A DNA stretch of 64,000 nt from Deltaproteobacteria bacterium (GTDB taxonomy: Bacteria; Myxococcota_A; UBA796; UBA9615): positions 1-64,000 of the forward strand of contig JAGSHC010000007.1 in assembly GCA_023954745.1 (NCBI GenBank), written 5' to 3'. The position numbers were made by a program, and so were the translations under genes. This document shows positions 49,792 through 64,000 of the stretch, piece after piece (position 1 is the stretch's first letter; every line of letters starts with the position of its first letter). The notes below the pieces were generated by a model, which did not search any database, had not been told where the DNA came from, and worked only from the letters and a program-made list of their open reading frames with translations.

Positions 49792-50778
49792 ATGAAGATC
49801 GCAGACGGACTCTGGCTCCTACTCATCCCCCTTCTCCTGATGCCAACGGCCGGCTGCCCCACCGATCCGCGGGGAGTCTTCGACGACGGAGAGCCGGACC
49901 CCGACGACCTGACGGACGACGACGACAGCACCGATCCGGTCGACGTCGACTGCACATCGCTCCCCGACCCGCCTCTCGTCGAGCGCACCCTCGACGGACC
50001 GCGAGCGACCAAGGGGCTCGCCATCGGCTCGGATGGCCGCGTCGTGGGGAGCGACGACTCCTCCCTCATCAAGTCCACCTATGACGGCGACTGGGAGGTC
50101 TTCCTGCCGGGCATCGGCACCGTCGAGGGCATGCTCTATCTGCCCGATGGGGACTTGGTGATCACGTCGTCCTGGGACGAAGGAGACCTGCGACGCATCA
50201 GTCCAGACGGGGGAATCACCGTCATTGCGTCCGCGCTCCTCGCATACTCCGTGATTCAGGGCCCCGACGGAATGCTGTACGCGGCGGGGTGGGACGGCGC
50301 GTTCCGGGTCGACCCCGATACAGGCGCGGTCGACACCCTCATCGCCAGCGGCTGGGACGACCCCTGGTCGCCTCGCACGCTCGCCTTCAGCGAAGATGGC
50401 TCGCGGCTGTTTGTCGGCACCGTCGACGAAGACGGCCGCATCTTCGTGTTCGACCTCGACGAGGACTTCGAGCCGACCGGTCCCCCCGCCGTGCACGTGA
50501 CGGGCGTGGGCAACGGTTGGCACGACGGGCTCGGGATCGACGCGTGCGGAAACCTCTGGACCGTCGACTTCGAGAGTTCCTCCCTCTACCGGGTCTCGCC
50601 CGAGGGAGACATCGACCGGATGGTCGACTGGTCGTCGAACCCAAGCCAGTTCGGACACGGACTCATCTGGGGTTCGGGCACCGGAGGCTGGAGGAGCGAC
50701 GCGCTCTATCTGCCAGTGCCCGAGGGCGGAGACGTAGTCAAAGAAGTGATCATCGGGGTGCCCGAAGCGAACCGGTAG
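49792..50778 (+). CDS. Lipoprotein, SMP-30/gluconolactonase-like beta-propeller
   Basis: Lipobox TAGC, DDDDST linker, repeated blades (GLAIGSDGRVVG, GIDACGNLWTVDFESSSLYRVSPEG). Confidence 0.65.
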   Translation: MKIADGLWLLLIPLLLMPTAGCPTDPRGVFDDGEPDPDDLTDDDDSTDPVDVDCTSLPDPPLVERTLDGPRATKGLAIGSDGRVVGSDDSSLIKSTYDGDWEVFLPGIGTVEGMLYLPDGDLVITSSWDEGDLRRISPDGGITVIASALLAYSVIQGPDGMLYAAGWDGAFRVDPDTGAVDTLIASGWDDPWSPRTLAFSEDGSRLFVGTVDEDGRIFVFDLDEDFEPTGPPAVHVTGVGNGWHDGLGIDACGNLWTVDFESSSLYRVSPEGDIDRMVDWSSNPSQFGHGLIWGSGTGGWRSDALYLPVPEGGDVVKEVIIGVPEANR

Positions 50779-50788
50779 CATCCGCCGC

Positions 50789-51403
50789 ATGACCGACCTC
50801 TTCGCCGACAAGGCCCACGAATACGACCAGCGACCCATTCCGGCCCAGATCTCCGCGGGGGTCTTCTCCGCCATCGAGGCGGCCGTCCCTCTGAGCCCTG
50901 ACCAGGTCGTCCTGGACTTCGGCGCAGGAACCGGCCTCATCGCGGGCAAGGTGGCCTCCCGGGTCGCGCGCGTGCTGGCGGTGGACATCTCCGAGTCCAT
51001 GCTGGCTCAGCTCGCCTCCAAGCCGGAGATGCCCGACACCGTCGAGCCGATCCGCCACGACCTCCTGGAGGGACCGCTCGACGAGCAGGTCGACCTCATC
51101 GTCAGCGCCATGGCCATGCACCACGTCGACAACACGGCGGCGCTCCTGCAGTCGCTGTTCGCGCAGCTTCGACCTGGCGGACGGGTGGCTCTCGCCGATC
51201 TCGACGCTGAGGACGGCTCGTTCCACCCCCCGGACATCCAGGGCGTGTTTCACCAGGGATTCGAGCGCCTGGCGCTTCGCCAGCTCATCGTGGACGCCGG
51301 CTTCGAGAACGTGCAGTTCGTCGACGCCTGCGAAGTCGACCGGGAGGAGCGGCGCTACCCCATCTTCCTGGTGACGGCGCAACGGCCTGCGACCGACGCA
51401 TAG
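50789..51403 (+). CDS. Class I SAM-dependent methyltransferase
   Basis: VVLDFGAGTGLIAGKVASRVARVLAVDISESMLAQL. Confidence 0.85.
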   Translation: MTDLFADKAHEYDQRPIPAQISAGVFSAIEAAVPLSPDQVVLDFGAGTGLIAGKVASRVARVLAVDISESMLAQLASKPEMPDTVEPIRHDLLEGPLDEQVDLIVSAMAMHHVDNTAALLQSLFAQLRPGGRVALADLDAEDGSFHPPDIQGVFHQGFERLALRQLIVDAGFENVQFVDACEVDREERRYPIFLVTAQRPATDA

Positions 51404-51468
51404 GTCTCAACGCTGCTCGGCGCGCGAGTTTCTGGTGCCCTGAGCGGCGGTCGACCTACAGTTCGCCG

Positions 51469-52854
51469 GTGACGCGCTTCTCCCTCCCCCTGCTCGCCCT
51501 CCTCGCTCTCGCCAACGTCAGCTGCGATGAGCCTCCGGAAGTCCCCGTGGCCGACTCACCGGCGATCGGGCCGACGGCCATGTCCTCGACGGGCTACGAG
51601 ACCCTGTCCATTCAGACAACTGTCGTGGACGTCGCTCCCGCCGAGGTCCGGGCCGTGCTCATTGGGGGCATCCTGGCCCTCGACCTCGAAGTGGTCGACG
51701 ACGAGTGGATCACCGTGACCTCCCAGGGCTCGCCGGCCCCAGGGCCCGCGGCCATCGACCTCGTGCTCTCGGACGTCTCGGTGCGCCACCCCGACACCCT
51801 CGACTACGCGGCTCCCATCGACCCCCGCCTCGAGCGCGTCGTCGCCTTCGGCGCCTCCCTCACCCAGGGGGTGCAGGACGGAACTCCCACTCATGACGGG
51901 GTGCTGATGAGCCCCTCGCTCCAGCTCGCCCGCGTCATGGGCGCCTACATGCCCCAACCGGTGCTCATCGACGACCTGTTCCCCACCCTCGGCCTCGACA
52001 GCGTCGGCCCACCACCCGAGTGCGCCTCCACCAACGTCGCCGACTTCATCCGCAATGCCATCACCGACGTGCTGGTGCAGATGGTGGACCCCGAGGAGGG
52101 GCTCGCCTACTGGGTGGCCCGCAGTGACCCGGACATGTCGGTGCGCAACCTCGCCGCGGGCAACTTCATGGTGGACGACATGCTGCTCGGCCCATCGGCC
52201 GACGAGCTCGTCCAGAACGTGCTCGGCTCCCTCAGCCTCGACCCGTACGCGCCCTTCGGGGGCGCCCCGCGGTGGACGATGATCGAGGCCGTCGAGCGGC
52301 TCGAGCCCACCGTGGTCGTGTCCTTCGATCTCGTAGGCAACGACGTGCTGAGCGGCACTGCGGTGGAGGACATGGAGGAGAACCTTCCTCCTCTCATCGC
52401 ACGCCTCGCTGCCACCGGCGCGGAGGTCTTCCTGGCTGACATGCCGGACATCTCGATCCTGCGCGGAAGCCTTGGGGACGAGCCCCTGGGCGAGGACGAA
52501 CAGTCCCTCGCCGACGAGGTCAACGCCGTGCTCTACGCCGAGGTGGACCGGCACGACAACGTGCACGTCGTGCCCGTCGCCGAGCGCGCGCTACAGATCG
52601 CCACGGACGGCCTCGAGCTCGGCGACCAGACCCTCAACGGGGAGATGCTGGGAGGCATCCTCAGCTTCGACGGGCTGCACTTCAGCTCGACGGGCTACGC
52701 CCTCGTCGCAGACATGTTCGTGGACACCATCAACAACGAGTTGGGTACAGCTGTCCCTGCCATCGACGTGGCAGCGGTCCTCGCAGAGGACATCCACTCC
52801 CCCAACGCCGTCCTGGACGCCGGCCGCGATGGCTCCCTCTGCGGAGTGGAGTAG
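51469..52854 (+). CDS. Lipoprotein, SGNH/GDSL-type hydrolase
   Basis: VVAFGASLTQGVQDG, SFDLVGNDVLSG, FDGLHFSSTGYALVADMFVDTIN; GTG start. Confidence 0.75.
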   Translation: MTRFSLPLLALLALANVSCDEPPEVPVADSPAIGPTAMSSTGYETLSIQTTVVDVAPAEVRAVLIGGILALDLEVVDDEWITVTSQGSPAPGPAAIDLVLSDVSVRHPDTLDYAAPIDPRLERVVAFGASLTQGVQDGTPTHDGVLMSPSLQLARVMGAYMPQPVLIDDLFPTLGLDSVGPPPECASTNVADFIRNAITDVLVQMVDPEEGLAYWVARSDPDMSVRNLAAGNFMVDDMLLGPSADELVQNVLGSLSLDPYAPFGGAPRWTMIEAVERLEPTVVVSFDLVGNDVLSGTAVEDMEENLPPLIARLAATGAEVFLADMPDISILRGSLGDEPLGEDEQSLADEVNAVLYAEVDRHDNVHVVPVAERALQIATDGLELGDQTLNGEMLGGILSFDGLHFSSTGYALVADMFVDTINNELGTAVPAIDVAAVLAEDIHSPNAVLDAGRDGSLCGVE

Positions 52855-53029
52855 CAGACGAGGCGCTCGGTCGAGGTGGAGTCCGCCCGGCGGGCCTGCA
52901 TCACCACAGTCGTGCCCTTGGGCAGCCGCGCCACCTTGAACGACTGGTCCTTCGCCACCGTCCACTGCGCTCCGACACCCACCTCTTCGAGGGGAAGGGG
53001 CACGGGGAGGCGACCTCGGCCGGGCCCCA

Positions 53030-53635
53030 TCACTGCTTGATTCCCTGGGGCCGGGCGCGGGCCTCCTCGAGCTCGCGCTCCACCTCGGCGGGCAGCTCGG
53101 TCTCAGCGACGTCGGTGCTCAGCAAGGTCCGGCCGCCGGCCGAGGTCACGAGCTGATCCCGCAGCTCGTCCACCTGCTCGTTGGCGTGGTGCACGTGCGC
53201 GCCGAGCCCGAGGACCGTGACGAGCAACGCGAAGGCGGCGAAGGCCGCCGCGATCATCGCCGCCGACGCCGTGCCTTCCCCCAGCAGCGACAGGGTCGAG
53301 ACCCCGACCACCAACGGCATGAAGAGGACCGCCACCAGCCGAAGAGTCCACACCATGAAGTCGGGCATGCCGACGTGGCCCTGGATCCGGGTGCCCGTGG
53401 CGGACTTGTCGAGAGTCACCGACGCCGTGGGCTGGAGCATCGACCACCAGTCGGACTTGTTCAGCCCGACCGTGGCCTTGCCCTCGGCCACTCGCCCCTT
53501 GAGCGGCTTCTTGCCGAACGTGAGGGGGCCGCCGCGATACGGCTGCGGGCTCCAGCGAGTCTCTTCCTTGAGCCGCTCTGCGACCTCTTCGGGCTCGCCG
53601 TCCACGAGCAGATCGAGCTCCAGCTTCCTTGGCAT
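53030..53635 (-). CDS. Hypothetical membrane protein
   Basis: Two hydrophobic segments (WTLRLVAVLFMPLVVGVS; AAMIAAAFAAFALLVTVLGLG). Confidence 0.6.
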   Translation of the reverse strand: MPRKLELDLLVDGEPEEVAERLKEETRWSPQPYRGGPLTFGKKPLKGRVAEGKATVGLNKSDWWSMLQPTASVTLDKSATGTRIQGHVGMPDFMVWTLRLVAVLFMPLVVGVSTLSLLGEGTASAAMIAAAFAAFALLVTVLGLGAHVHHANEQVDELRDQLVTSAGGRTLLSTDVAETELPAEVERELEEARARPQGIKQ

Positions 53636-53698
53636 GCGTCCTCCCTCTCAAGCGAGGGAAGACGCTACCAAGTCGCCGGAACGCCCGTGAGAGGCCGT

Positions 53699-55468
<1,770 letters not shown>

Positions 55469-55577
55469 CGTGATCTCCGATAGATGTGCCGGCGGCGGCG
55501 CGCACCCTACCCGCAGAATCGGCGATGACATAGCCGCGTCATAGTCTTGCGGTAGAGGAACCGCCTACCGTCAGGTC

Positions 55578-56702
55578 ATGCATGAAGCAGACGAGGAGAT
55601 CCCCTCGACTCCCGGCGCTCCCGAGTCGGGCTCCGCAGGGTTCTACCGGTGGTCCGACACGATCACCGCGGGGCAGCGGGCCGTCCGCCTCCCCTCGGGC
55701 GCCGAGGTCTCTTCGGTGCGCTTCGGCGCGTTCGACCTCGTGGGCCTGCTGGGGACCGGCGGGATGGCCCGGGTCTACCTCGCCCTGCAAGACAACCAGC
55801 CGGGCAAGCAGTTCGCCCTCAAGGTCCTCAACGAGGACCTGGCCACTCGGCCCTCATCCCTGGTGGCGTTCGAAGACGAAGCACGGCTGAGCGTCATGCT
55901 GGTGCACCGGAACATCGTGCGCACCGTCAGCCATGGAGCCGTCGGGGGTCGCCCATTCCTCGCCATGCAACGGGTGCCGGGCTGGAACCTGGAGGACGTG
56001 CTCCGGTCTCTTCATCGCCGCGGTGACGTTCCCAGCGAGCCGGTCGTGGCGGCCCTCGCCTTGGAGGTGGCCCGCGGAATGGCCTACGCCCACGGTATGC
56101 GTGACCGGTGGGGCAACCACCTGCGCCTCGTGCACCGCGACCTGAAGCCAGGGAACATGATGATCAGCCCCCGCGGCGCCGTCCGAGTGATGGACTTCGG
56201 CATCGCCCGCTGGCGCAATCGGGAGGGCACGACGGGCCGCGGATGGGTCAAGGGCACCGTCGGCTTCATGAGCCCCGAGCAGGTGCTCGGCATTCACATC
56301 ACCGCCCGCTCGGACATCTTCTCCCTGGGATCGGCGCTGGCCACGATGGTGTTGGGGAGGTCTCCCTTCGAGCGGGCAACCCTGGAGTTGGCTGGCCAGG
56401 CGATCCTCGCAGCGGACCTCGCCCCGGTTTGGGACGCGCTGGTGCTCGCGCTACCGACGCTGCACCCGCTGGTCGCGCGCTGCCTTCGGCCGCAGCCTTC
56501 CGAACGCCCCTCCTCAGCGGGGGTCGTCGCAGAGCTCGAGGCCTGTGTTGAGCTTCATCACCCCGACGTGCTCGCGGAGTGGATTGGACGGATCGAACCC
56601 TCGCTCGACCCCATCCCGGGACCGGGGCACTGGCCAGCAGGTGGCCCCCCCGAGGGCCTCCGGCGTACTCGCCAGGAGGCCGGGCTCACCCCGTCCAGCT
56701 GA
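55578..56702 (+). CDS. Serine/threonine protein kinase
   Basis: LLGTGGMARVYLALQ, FALKVL, VHRDLKPGNMM, MDFGIAR, GFMSPEQVLG. Confidence 0.92.
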   Translation: MHEADEEIPSTPGAPESGSAGFYRWSDTITAGQRAVRLPSGAEVSSVRFGAFDLVGLLGTGGMARVYLALQDNQPGKQFALKVLNEDLATRPSSLVAFEDEARLSVMLVHRNIVRTVSHGAVGGRPFLAMQRVPGWNLEDVLRSLHRRGDVPSEPVVAALALEVARGMAYAHGMRDRWGNHLRLVHRDLKPGNMMISPRGAVRVMDFGIARWRNREGTTGRGWVKGTVGFMSPEQVLGIHITARSDIFSLGSALATMVLGRSPFERATLELAGQAILAADLAPVWDALVLALPTLHPLVARCLRPQPSERPSSAGVVAELEACVELHHPDVLAEWIGRIEPSLDPIPGPGHWPAGGPPEGLRRTRQEAGLTPSS

Positions 56703-56720
56703 GCTGAACGGGGCGAGATC

Positions 56721-56752
56721 GGTGCGCCGCCCGGGTTGCCGGGCGACGCGCC
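56721..56752. terminator. Bidirectional terminator-like hairpin between convergent genes
   Basis: GGTGCGCCGCCCGG-GTTG-CCGGGCGACGCGCC, 12 of 14 pairs. Confidence 0.5.
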
Positions 56753-56767
56753 AAAGTCGACGGGTCG

Positions 56768-57031
56768 CTAGACCTTCTCGACGCCCTGCTTCTTGACGTT
56801 CGCCTTCCAGACGGTGTCGCCGAGCCAGGAGGGGCCGTTGCTCGGGGCAGCGACCTGCTCACGCCATCCCTTGAAGACGTGCACGCGGTTGGTGCCGCGC
56901 TCGCGGAGGCGGATGTCGGTGTGGCCACGGGAGGCAGCCTTCAGAGCCGCGCCACGAGGCTGGCGGCTGTGAAAGACGGTGTCGGTGTCGCCACCATTTT
57001 CCTGCATCACGAAGTACTTCTTGTCAGCCAT
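56768..57031 (-). CDS. MC1-like (archaeal non-histone chromosomal protein) DNA-binding protein
   Basis: MADKKYFVMQENGGDTDTVFHSRQPRGAALKAASRGHTDIRLRERGTNRVHVFKGWREQVAAPSNGPSWLGDTVWKANVKKQGVEKV matches the MC1 pattern QPRxAALKAAxRG...DIRLRERGTxxVHVFKxWxExVxAPxxxPxW...VKK; GAGGG before ATG. Confidence 0.88.
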   Translation of the reverse strand: MADKKYFVMQENGGDTDTVFHSRQPRGAALKAASRGHTDIRLRERGTNRVHVFKGWREQVAAPSNGPSWLGDTVWKANVKKQGVEKV

Positions 57032-57076
57032 GATTTTTCCCTCAGCAGCCCCGACGTCCGTCGCCGAGGCAATTCG

Positions 57077-57107
57077 ATTGTAAGTCACAACGTTTCTGGG
57101 GGGTCAA
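57077..57107 (-). promoter_or_regulatory. Candidate sigma70-like promoter for the MC1-like gene
   Basis: On minus strand TTGACC-N19-TACAAT; spacer longer than optimal. Confidence 0.35.
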
Positions 57108-57428
57108 TGGAGAAAATTGCGGTCGCTGTTGACTCGTCCCTCATTGGCAGGCAAAAAGCGTGGTTTTGCCAGCTCCAGCATCGCCGCGAAGCATGCGGAA
57201 TGACGACGTTTCCGGCGATCCGGAAGACGCCCGAATCGACCGCTTGGACGGCGTCCAGCGATCACGCATTTTTTTTGCATTTTTTTCGATTTGGGGGTTG
57301 CGCGAACACCCCTTCGGCTCAGTTGAGGCCTCTTGCGTGCCCCCTCTGAGGGCCCCCAGGCGACGTCAGGCGATGTGCGCGTCAACCCATCCGGAGTCGG
57401 GATCTCCGAGGGGGCGCGATGGCGTGGC

Positions 57429-58340
57429 TCATCGCTTCAGATTCTCGGCGAGGAAGTCACGGGTCTTGCCCCAGGCGTCGTCCGCAGCGTCGGCGGCGTA
57501 CCGAGCCGAGCTCGGGTTCGCAAAGGCGTGGTCGGCGTCATAGATGTGCACCGTCACCGACTTGCCCGCTTCGGTGGCGGCGGTCTCGAAGTCACGGACC
57601 GTCGAGATGGGAATGCCTGCATCGCGCTCGCCAAACACTCCGAGGACCGGGGCCTGGAGGCTGGCGAGACCCGAGAGGTCCTCGGGAATCCGCCCGTAGT
57701 AGAGGACCGCAGCGTCGAGCTCGGCGTTGGTGAGAGCGGCCCGCAGTGACCATCCACCCCCGAAGCACCACCCGATGACCCCCGTGCGCGGAGCCTGCAC
57801 GCGAGGATCCGAGGTCAAGAAGGCGTGGGCCAACGCGAGGGTCTCCCCGGCGAGGGCCTCATCGACGCCCTTCATGGCCATCATCGCGTCGTCCGGGGTC
57901 GTCGCCACCGTCCCGCCGTAGAGGTCCACGGCGAGGGCCGCATATCCCGCGGCTGCGAGGCGGTCCGTCCAGTGCTTGATGTGTCCGTTGAGACCCCACC
58001 ACTCGTGAATCACGATGACGGCGGGCACCGGCCCGGTCGCTCCTTCGGGGAGGGACAGGTACGCGGTGGTGTCGCCGATGGTCACGCTGGTGCCCTTCGC
58101 AGGCGGCGCGGCTTCCCCACTGAGCTGATGCAGGGCCGCGAACTGCGCCTCGGTGAGCAGCCCCGGCTGGGCCGGGCTCATGCCGGCGTTGGCGGCGTCC
58201 GCGGTCCTCGAGGGTTGCGAGGTCTCCCCCGGCTTGGCTTCCCCCGCCGCCACCGGTGTGGGCTCGCTCTTCGGGGCCTCGTCCGAGGTGCCGCAGGCGA
58301 GAAGGAGAGCGAGGGGCGCGAGCAGCAGGCGGTGGTCCAT
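57429..58340 (-). CDS. Dienelactone hydrolase-family lipoprotein
   Basis: LALLLACGTSDE lipobox; VIVIHEWWGLNGHIKHWTDRLAAAGYAALAVDLYGG; GWCFGGGWSL; DADHAF. Confidence 0.85.
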   Translation of the reverse strand: MDHRLLLAPLALLLACGTSDEAPKSEPTPVAAGEAKPGETSQPSRTADAANAGMSPAQPGLLTEAQFAALHQLSGEAAPPAKGTSVTIGDTTAYLSLPEGATGPVPAVIVIHEWWGLNGHIKHWTDRLAAAGYAALAVDLYGGTVATTPDDAMMAMKGVDEALAGETLALAHAFLTSDPRVQAPRTGVIGWCFGGGWSLRAALTNAELDAAVLYYGRIPEDLSGLASLQAPVLGVFGERDAGIPISTVRDFETAATEAGKSVTVHIYDADHAFANPSSARYAADAADDAWGKTRDFLAENLKR

Positions 58341-58368
58341 GGGAGTCCTCCAAGGGGGGAACCGATGA

Positions 58369-60163
<1,795 letters not shown>

Positions 60164-60189
60164 GCGTTCACGCTACGTGATGCCCGAGG

Positions 60190-60297
60190 GGTATCACCCG
60201 GGAGCATCCGGTGATAGCAGCCGATACCATGACGGGGTACCGTGCGATACCTTGTACCGGTAGCGACTGGTATCAGCTCTAGAAACCACCCGGTATC
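60190..60297. promoter_or_regulatory. Array of GGTATC/GATACC boxes, last four at exact 23-bp spacing
   Basis: GGTATC 60190, GATACC 60223, GATACC 60246, GGTATC 60269, GGTATC 60292. Confidence 0.7.
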
Positions 60298-60323
60298 ACC
60301 AATAGATATCGCAAAGGACTGCC

Positions 60324-60740
60324 ATGTCCCGCACCCAGCTCGGCCTCCGCCTCTCCCACGACGAAGCCGAGCAGCTCCGCCGCGTGGCGAGGTCGCGTCG
60401 CATGTCGCTCGGCGAGCTCGTGACCACGCTGCTGCGAGACGAGCGCGCCCAGCAGGGACAGGGCATCTGGCTCGACCTCGACCCCATCGCCCACACCGCG
60501 CTTCGGGCCGTAGCCGCTGCAGCCGAGACGACCCCGGAGGAGGTGATGCAGCGATTCGCGCGCCGTTGGCTTGCGGCCGACCTCGCGCGGCTTCAGCGGG
60601 AGCTGGGGGCGGACTCCCTCCCCGGAACGACGACCACGGGGTCCCCCGATGGGTCCTTGGCGGCCTCCTCCGTCGGAAACCCAGACTCCGACGCCTTCGA
60701 CGAACCCGACGACGTGCTGTTCACGGTCTCGGAGGACTGA
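60324..60740 (+). CDS. Ribbon-helix-helix (CopG/Arc-like) protein, possibly two RHH units in tandem
   Basis: RTQLGLRLSHDEAEQLRRVARSRRMSLGELVTTLLRDE and GIWLDLDPIAHTALRAVAAAAETTPEEVMQRFARRWL. Confidence 0.6.
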   Translation: MSRTQLGLRLSHDEAEQLRRVARSRRMSLGELVTTLLRDERAQQGQGIWLDLDPIAHTALRAVAAAAETTPEEVMQRFARRWLAADLARLQRELGADSLPGTTTTGSPDGSLAASSVGNPDSDAFDEPDDVLFTVSED

Positions 60741-61171
60741 CGCACGGCGTCTGGAGGGCGCTCATCGGAGTGGCAGTACGCCTGGTACACGCCCATCACG
60801 GCGTCGCAGGTCTCGCCTTCTGGGATCCCTTGCTCCTGGCATCGCTCGTGTCGCCAGGCCCCAGCGGTCGTCTCGTTGTTGGGGTCGGGGACTCCGACGC
60901 AGAACCCCTCGGTGAGGTGCGCCTCCATGAAGCAGAGCATCTCGAAGCTCGCGAGCTTCACCAGACAGACGACGCCGCCATCACAGCCAGCGCTGCGCTT
61001 CACCGTCTCGGTGAGACAACCACGCTCGTCGGTGGACGCAGCAAAGGTCTCGGCCTCCTCGGCCATCTCCTTGCCTGCTTTGGCGGCGATGCCTCCCACC
61101 GCCATGGCCAGGCCAACCAGGATCAAGATCCCCACTGCGGCAGCGACAAACAGCTTTCCGAGTCCCGACAT
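60593..61171 (-). CDS. Membrane-anchored Cys-rich hypothetical protein
   Basis: N-terminal TM LFVAAAVGILILVGLAMAVGG, then about 9 cysteines. Confidence 0.5.
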   Translation of the reverse strand: MSGLGKLFVAAAVGILILVGLAMAVGGIAAKAGKEMAEEAETFAASTDERGCLTETVKRSAGCDGGVVCLVKLASFEMLCFMEAHLTEGFCVGVPDPNNETTAGAWRHERCQEQGIPEGETCDAVMGVYQAYCHSDERPPDAVRQSSETVNSTSSGSSKASESGFPTEEAAKDPSGDPVVVVPGRESAPSSR

Positions 61172-61208
61172 ACTGCTCCCGAGCACAGCCTGAACGGCCC
61201 GATGCCTC

Positions 61209-62105
61209 CTAGTAGTGCCAGGGGTAGTCGCCGAAGTTGCGCGGGCGCTTCTCCAGGAAGGAGTCCCTGCCCTCCTGGGCCTCGTCGGTGCCGTAGGCGA
61301 GCCGCGTGGCCTCCCCCGCGAACACCTGCTGACCCACGAGCCCGTCGTCGATCATGTTGAAGGCGAACTTCAACATGCGCTGGGCCGTCGGCGACTTGTC
61401 GAGGATCTCCGCCGCCCACTGCAGGGCCTCGTTCTCCAGCTCCGCGTGGGGGAGCGCGGCGTTGGCCATGCCCATCTGGAAGGCCTCTTCGGCGCTGTAG
61501 TTGCGACCGAGGAAGAAGATCTCGCGCGCCCGCTTCTGACCCACCTGACGCGCGAGGTAGGCAGAGCCGAAGCCGCCATCGAAGCTGGCGACGTCCGCGT
61601 CGGTCTGCTTGAAGACCGCGTGCTCCTTCGAGGCGAGAGTGAGGTCCGCCACCACGTGCAGCGAGTGCCCCCCGCCCACAGCCCACCCCGGCACCACCGC
61701 GATGACGACCTTGGGCATGAACCGAATGAGGCGCTGGACCTCGAGGATGTGAAGACGACCGAGGCGGGCGCGGTCGATCTGACCCTCGCCGCCCTCCTGG
61801 TACTGGTAGCCCGCCTTGCCGCGCACGCGCTGGTCGCCGCCGGAGCAGAAGGCCCAGCCGCCGTCCTTCGGTGACGGCCCGTTGCCCGTCAGCAGGACGA
61901 CCCCCACATCGCTCCACTGGCGCGCGTGGTCGAGGGCGCGGTACAGCTCGTCCACCGTGTTGGGGCGGAACGCGTTGCGCACCTCGGGCCGGTCGAAGGC
62001 GATGCGTACGCAGCCCAGGTCCTTCGCCCGGTGGTAGGTGATGTCAGTGAAACCGAAGCCGGGGACTTCGTCCCAGCGGCTCGCGTCGAAGATCTCCGAG
62101 ACCAT
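61209..62105 (-). CDS. menB: 1,4-dihydroxy-2-naphthoyl-CoA synthase
   Basis: FTDITYHRA...VRIAFDRPEVRNAFRPNTVDEL...FCSGGDQRVRG...VVPGWAVGGGHSLHVVADLTLAS...FDGGFGSAYLARQVGQKRAREIFFLGRNYSAEEA. Confidence 0.92.
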   Translation of the reverse strand: MVSEIFDASRWDEVPGFGFTDITYHRAKDLGCVRIAFDRPEVRNAFRPNTVDELYRALDHARQWSDVGVVLLTGNGPSPKDGGWAFCSGGDQRVRGKAGYQYQEGGEGQIDRARLGRLHILEVQRLIRFMPKVVIAVVPGWAVGGGHSLHVVADLTLASKEHAVFKQTDADVASFDGGFGSAYLARQVGQKRAREIFFLGRNYSAEEAFQMGMANAALPHAELENEALQWAAEILDKSPTAQRMLKFAFNMIDDGLVGQQVFAGEATRLAYGTDEAQEGRDSFLEKRPRNFGDYPWHY

Positions 62106-62188
62106 GATTGGCTCCTCCAGGCGGGGCCGCGAAAGCTACACGAAGCGTCCTGGCTGCTCTCGTCTTCTGGACGTTCTACCCTCGCCTC

Positions 62189-63211
62189 ATGCGCCCCTTC
62201 ACCGACCTCACCCCGCGCGGCCAACTGCGACGCCTGCATGCGCTCGCCACCGAGGCACTTCGTGGGTGGGCGCTGCCGAGGGAGCCGACCCTGCGGCTGC
62301 TGAACCACGGCGAGAACACCGTCTACGGAGTGCGCACCCCGGGAACCCCCGAGCTGCACGTGCTGCGGATTCACCGCAGCGACTACCACCCGATGGACCA
62401 CCTCGTGAGCGAGGCCCGCTGGCTCGATTACCTCCAGGGCGAGGGCATCGGCGCCCCGGCGGCGGAGCGAGACATCCAGGGGAACCCCGTCCGCCACGTG
62501 CAGACCGAGGGAATGCCGGAGGGACGGCACGTCACCCTGCTGCGCAAGACCCCGGGTCGCATGCGGGACTACGACCACTGGGGCCCCACTCACGCGGCGG
62601 AGGTGGGCAAGCTCCTGGCGAGGATGCACCGGGCCGCCGAGCGATTCGAGGCGCCCGCGGGATTCTCGCGCCGCGTGCTGGACGCCGAGGGGCTCGTGGG
62701 TCCCACCGCGAGCTGGGGGGACCCGCTGGCGGAGCCTCTGCTGGATAAGGCAGGCAAGGATCTGTTCGCCTGGGGCCGCGACCGGTTGTTCGAGGAGCTA
62801 GGCACGCTGCCTCGGGACCGAACCGCCTGGGGCATGACCCACACCGATCTGCACGGTGGCAACGTGCTCTTCGCCGACGGCGTCGCGAAGGCCATCGACT
62901 TCGACGACCTGGCCCATGCGTGGTTCGTGAGCGACTTCGCGGTCAACCTCGTGCCCGTGCGATGGCGCAATCCAGACCTCGCAGACGGCATGCTCGCCGG
63001 CTACCGCTCGGTGCGCCCGCTGTCGGATGAGGCCCTCGCCGCGCTCCCGACCTTTCACTGTGCGCGGCGGATGATGGGGGTGGCCTGGGCCCGCTCCCGA
63101 GCCGACGTCCCCCGTTTGATCAAGTGGCTCCCCTGGCGCATCCAGTTCGCGATGCGCACCCTGCAGGCGTGGAAGGACGGCGACGACCCTCTCCTCGTGA
63201 AGCCCGACTAG
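62189..63211 (+). CDS. Phosphotransferase-family (homoserine kinase II/APH fold) protein
   Basis: [38 protein letters not shown]. Confidence 0.8.
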
Positions 63212-63234
63212 CGCCCTTTCCCCCGAGAGCCCCC

Positions 63235-64000
63235 ATGGACGATCAGCAACTCCTCGAAGACCTCGCGCAGCGCATCGAGAAGGACCCCTCGATCCTGTTC
63301 GTCACGGGGGCCGGCCTGTCTGCGGACTCGGGGCTCCCCACCTATCGAGGAGTCGGCGGGCTCTACGACAACAAGGGAACGGCCGACGGGATCCCCATCG
63401 AGGAGGCCCTCTCGGGTCCCATGTTCCGCAAGGACCCGGACCTCACCTGGAAGTACATCCGCCAGATCGAGGAGGCCTGCCGCGGCGCGAGCCCCAACCG
63501 GGCCCACGAGGTCATGGCGGCCCTGGAGAAGAAGCTCTCCCGCGTCGTCGTCCTGACGCAGAACGTCGACGGCCTCCACCGCGCCGCGGGGACCGAGAAC
63601 CTCATCGAGATTCACGGCACGGTGCACGATCTTCGCTGCCCCTTCTGCGGATGGACCCACCGCGTCGACGACTACTCCCACCTCGCCCCGGGCACGCCCG
63701 AGTGTGGGGACTGCTTCTCAGTGATTCGCCCGCGGGTCGTGCTCTTCGGCGAGATGCTGCCCAGCGATGGCATCAACAAGCTGGAAGCGGAGCTCGCGAA
63801 GGGCTTCGATCTGGTGTTCAGCGTGGGCACCACGAGCGTCTTCCCCTACATCGCGGCGCCCGTGTACCGAGCGAACCGGGAAGGCGGGCTCACCGTGGAG
63901 ATCAACCCCGGAGACACCGAAGTGTCCTACGACGTCCAGCACCGTCTGCGGCGCGGGGCCGCGGACGCACTGGGTAGGTTGGGAGAACTCGTCGGGGTGT
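63235..64000 (+). CDS. Sir2-family NAD-dependent protein deacylase; 3' end outside window
   Basis: Own translation from ATG 63235: [51 protein letters not shown]...[33 protein letters not shown]. Not in ORF track because no stop occurs before 64000. Confidence 0.93.

Follow-up and report, generated by a model that had tools for sequence, protein, structure and literature searches.

In Methanosarcina MC1, Trp74 intercalates DNA (PMC6776556, PMC3928310), Pro72 inserts into it (PMC6776556), and the V-turn is shaped by R25, Q23, P72, W74, K86, and I89 (PMC6776556, PMC3928310). R25 is the residue whose loss cuts binding most, with the R25A substitution shifting the KDapp from 1.2 to 161 nM, while M75L lowers affinity and R71A keeps binding and bends DNA more strongly (PMC3928310). 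The form named MC1b (PMC9723583) is that of Marine Group II archaea (Ca. Poseidoniales), to which MC1 is restricted within its phylum and where its arrival has been inferred as a horizontal transfer (PMC7613761); our own count for that phylum, 62 of 243 genomes with MC1, agrees with this restriction. On the bacterial side, histones (HBb, Bdellovibrio bacteriovorus; PMC10627809, PMC11317129) offer a precedent for a chromatin protein of archaeal/eukaryotic type in bacteria, and HU/IHF are small, basic, DNA-bending nucleoid proteins. In the literature we searched, which included few subscription papers, MC1 figures as a protein of archaea that also has viral copies: reports place it in archaea, including Marine Group II, and in giant viruses, and no bacterial report was found. 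Public databases may hold unremarked bacterial MC1 entries.

Here we describe an MC1 gene in a 64,000-nucleotide stretch of contig JAGSHC010000007.1 from a Myxococcota genome (hereafter the window, i.e., the whole stretch of DNA analysed). The gene and its upstream features are:

56768 to 57031, minus strand: MC1-family protein gene, 87 aa plus TAG stop (MADKKYFVMQ...KKQGVEKV), single copy, pI 10.3
57039 to 57043, minus strand: Shine-Dalgarno-like GAGGG, 7 nt before the MC1 ATG, read from the sequence
57032 to 57428, minus strand: upstream non-coding region, 397 bp, with minus-strand A-tracts around 57265-57300, read from the sequence

The start codon reads ATG, and a GGA-rich stretch lies ahead of it in aligned relatives as well. 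The product, MADKKYFVMQENGGDTDTVFHSRQPRGAALKAASRGHTDIRLRERGTNRVHVFKGWREQVAAPSNGPSWLGDTVWKANVKKQGVEKV, is small and basic (net charge +7), and a search of the whole 7.13 Mb genome returned this single MC1 copy. A first-pass annotation of the DNA had assigned the gene to MC1; its coordinates, the 87-aa length, and both motifs it quoted are right letter for letter, and the strand, which it did not give, is minus. The profile search it called for bears out the family and domain assignment, as Pfam PF05854 (MC1) matched the product significantly (E 6e-29, 100.6 bits, for a gathering score of 23 bits) over profile positions 1-94 of 96. A sequence search of the PDB retrieved Methanosarcina MC1 (1t23/2khl/2nbj, E 8.5e-21). 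Because of the PF05854 score and because orthologues in independent genomes are 63-84% identical, a chance match to MC1 is excluded. MC1 was the sole Pfam match up to E 1, the HU/IHF profile PF00216 (Bac_DNA_binding) and PHROGs (up to E 0.1) gave no match, and the strand opposite the ORF had no Pfam match above the cut-off. The gene encodes a genuine MC1 family protein seated in a bacterial chromosome, extending a known family to a domain where it was not expected. NCBIfam was without any model naming proteins P0001, L009, and L052, and automatic annotation may thus leave bacterial MC1 as hypothetical.

Compared with Methanosarcina thermophila MC1 (PDB 1T23, 2KHL, 2NBJ), the window protein shows full-length homology at 50% identity, a similarly basic pI, and the same key DNA-contact residues. 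Three of these, placed by alignment, are encoded at:

56954 to 56956, minus strand: R26 codon, equivalent of Arg25 of Methanosarcina MC1
56831 to 56833, minus strand: P67 codon, equivalent of DNA-inserting Pro72
56825 to 56827, minus strand: W69 codon, equivalent of DNA-intercalating Trp74

The equivalents of Q23, R25, H56, P72, W74, and K86 are identical in the window protein (Q24, R26, H51, P67, W69, and K81), and those of Q23, R25, K30, R34, H56, P72, W74, and K86 are invariant in all 75 sequences compared (31 from bacteria, 44 from Marine Group II). Most invariant positions touch DNA or were mutated in Methanosarcina MC1 (PMC6776556, PMC3928310). I89 corresponds to V84, a position occupied by V, I, or L among the 75 sequences. 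Unlike the M. thermophila protein, the window's is bacterial, has a helix-beta3 loop (LP3) shorter by 6 residues, and carries three changes, namely Q26 (a DNA contact in Methanosarcina) to G27, M75 to L70, and R71 (a DNA contact) to G66. An AlphaFold2 model (pLDDT 90.9) placed strands at residues 5-11, 14-22, 39-44, 49-61, and 73-86 and a helix at 25-34, giving a predicted order beta1-beta2-alpha-beta3-beta4-beta5 with a long beta4-beta5 arm, which is the published MC1 order (PMC6776556). Foldseek matched this model to MC1-like proteins of giant viruses (TM up to 0.81); a Foldseek search of the PDB gave nothing significant and no MC1 entry. By analogy with the archaeal protein, we infer that the window MC1 may be an abundant, monomeric, DNA-bending protein with a role in the nucleoid. 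A monomer would bind double-stranded DNA and fold it into a sharp V-turn, with R26 neutralising the compressed major groove, P67 and W69 on the beta4-beta5 arm wedging into the minor groove, and K81, V84, and H51 clamping the other side of the DNA.

The helix-beta3 loop of bacterial and Marine Group II proteins counts 5 residues, whereas Methanosarcina MC1 has 11 and haloarchaeal MC1 15-18; G replaces Q26 in both short-loop groups. These two groups also formed an exclusive clade (support 99/94) that left out all five archaeal outgroup rows. Judged from loop and tree, they are one short-loop subfamily, separate from methanogen and haloarchaeal MC1. Marine Group II proteins are 63-77% identical to the window protein and share G27 and L70 with it; they differ in the domain of their host and in beta4-strand residues around 56-61, which vary between clades. 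The haloarchaeal proteins (from Halococcus and Salinibaculum plasmids) fall in the same Pfam family, but their identity is about 40%, their loop is 10-13 residues longer, and the one protein tested, from Halococcus dombrowskii, has a pI of 5.6. Five plasmid records of H. dombrowskii each carried MC1 matches (L091, L093, and L094 among the loci), with as many as three sites on a single plasmid. Whereas the first-pass annotation had named Methanosarcina-type archaea and some haloarchaea as the best-known hosts of MC1, the closest archaeal relatives are therefore those of Marine Group II. Since these ocean-dwelling archaea hold the nearest relatives outside Myxococcota, the MC1 gene crossed between two domains of life. 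The suggestion that it could be a transferred nucleoid-associated protein is supported, but not as an isolated, recent import of Methanosarcina type, as the short-loop subfamily spans several Myxococcota families.

The same phylogeny does not allow an archaea-to-bacteria direction to be assumed. In the best tree, which leans the opposite way without significance, Marine Group II is adjacent to the window's clade (93/93) and nested inside bacterial sequences, and the mean identity of the window's clade is 66% with Marine Group II and 63% with other bacterial MC1. Forced bacterial monophyly, however, withstood the AU test (p 0.105, and 0.232 once long branches were removed), and because of this, and with 90 columns and five outgroup sequences only, the tree does not decide the direction. 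Somewhat short of an even chance, in our view, is a history in which the short-loop subfamily arose in bacteria and Marine Group II got MC1 from Myxococcota, an archaeal chromatin protein thereby returning to archaea. If this were true, a candidate chromatin protein of very abundant ocean archaea would have come from bacteria. Bacterial MC1 in any case offers close relatives with which to compare the Marine Group II protein, whose arrival there is so far unexplained.

Across the 379 Myxococcota genomes sampled, MC1 matches were found in 32, and in 31 genomes from six families once G237 was dropped; its match (24.5 bits) was rejected as likely chance or out-of-frame, with low GC3 and an N-terminal half that was not recognisable. 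The named MC1-bearing relatives are metagenome-assembled genomes, with no cultured member identified among them. MC1 is long established in several of these families. Family f13 has it in 19 of 22 genomes, including 15/15 of good quality, and in the f13 loci compared it adjoins a lytic-transglycosylase gene, and in four lepA. Among loci L082, L083, L085, L086, and L088, the arrangement with MC1 flanked by lepA (elongation factor 4) on one side and the lytic-transglycosylase gene on the other recurs in several f13 genera. Vertical retention in at least this family is part of the explanation that we favour below. Sister genomes, where the first-pass annotation had proposed to look, are largely positive, with MC1 in five of the six genomes of the window's own family (f1). 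These f1 genes fall into two distinct sequence lineages with differing neighbourhoods (L002 and L004; L001, L003, and L005), and MC1 location differs even among species of one genus. One f1 lineage groups with Myxococcota family f49, and lies near a CDP-alcohol phosphatidyltransferase gene in both genomes having it.

At the window locus, the minus strand carries a dienelactone-hydrolase-type lipoprotein gene (57429-58547), the 397-bp gap, and MC1, while a Ser/Thr kinase gene on the plus strand (55578-56702) converges on MC1 from the other side. Beyond the kinase lies an acyl-CoA dehydrogenase gene, whose orthologue in the sister species sits on a separate contig of 9.5 kb that lacks MC1. A promoter of its own is probable for the MC1 gene; a simple scan of the locus found no sigma-70-like promoter or terminator, Rfam gave no match within 50000-64000, and the upstream DNA is not conserved among relatives. 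The consensus site of Methanosarcina MC1 also begins with an A-tract, like those at 57265-57300, and self-regulation through the upstream A-tracts is conceivable by analogy.

Overall, we consider it probable that the gene encodes a true MC1 that acts as a V-turn DNA-bending nucleoid protein beside HU, and that passed between Myxococcota and Marine Group II in the distant past and was retained thereafter. HU/IHF proteins are dimeric and belong to an unrelated family, and bacterial histones have an unrelated fold, with no histone-fold gene found in the window's genome. HU-family genes were present in all 32 genomes tested, so that MC1 would be an additional nucleoid-associated protein; its replacing HU was rejected on the same count. 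The window's genome (G000) holds five HU-family genes, more than most relatives. A stable bacterial MC1 subfamily would represent a natural experiment, in which an archaeal DNA-bending protein was added to an HU-based nucleoid. The five HU-family genes could also be read the other way, along with the patchy distribution of MC1 (31/379 genomes), the differing neighbourhoods within the window's own family, and the preference of Methanosarcina MC1 for four-way junctions and bent DNA (PMC3928310), as signs that the fold was kept for a local regulator or a DNA-repair/recombination accessory instead of a global chromatin protein. We regard this as unlikely, because the residues making non-specific DNA contacts are strictly kept and no operon partner or conserved neighbour of MC1 was found in the window's lineage.

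Much less probable still is that MC1 is a selfish or phage-borne passenger recently brought in, for instance a virion DNA-condensing protein. Its shifting position between species of one genus and the MC1-like proteins of giant viruses would fit such an origin, but MC1 occurred in 0 of 50,697 phage records and in none of the IMG/VR scans, and the short-loop subfamily was absent from the plasmids searched. Together with the PHROGs result, this led us to reject phage or plasmid carriage of the subfamily. Moreover, no tRNA gene was found anywhere in the window and no repeats were found flanking MC1, and the gene has been long retained in other Myxococcota, as in 19 of the 22 f13 genomes.

Least credible of all is that archaeal contaminant DNA, binned or chimerically assembled into the bacterial genome, explains the gene: metagenome assemblies do misbin, but the flanks are bacterial on both sides, as the first-pass annotation had said, GC3 is host-like (0.85 for MC1, 0.85-0.93 for neighbouring genes), MC1 is the only gene common to the window and the compared Marine Group II contigs, which share no other DNA similarity with it, archaeal L19e was found in 0 of 20 MC1-bearing Myxococcota genomes (the window's and 19 others), and the lepA synteny of MC1 is kept across independent genomes of another family (f13). 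The chimeric contig that the first-pass annotation had raised as a concern was thus rejected, and the contig is bacterial to either side of MC1, in a genome estimated as 100% complete and 0.59% contaminated. L19e was matched in 3 of 4 archaeal-type genomes tested, the exception being the assembly of L022. This locus (NZKZ01000004.1, labelled 'Acidiferrobacter sp. IN47') matches L023, a contig of Euryarchaeota (Marine Group II), at 98.4% identity along 7.5 kb; it was rejected as a proteobacterial MC1, and is likely misbinned archaeal DNA inside a proteobacterial assembly.
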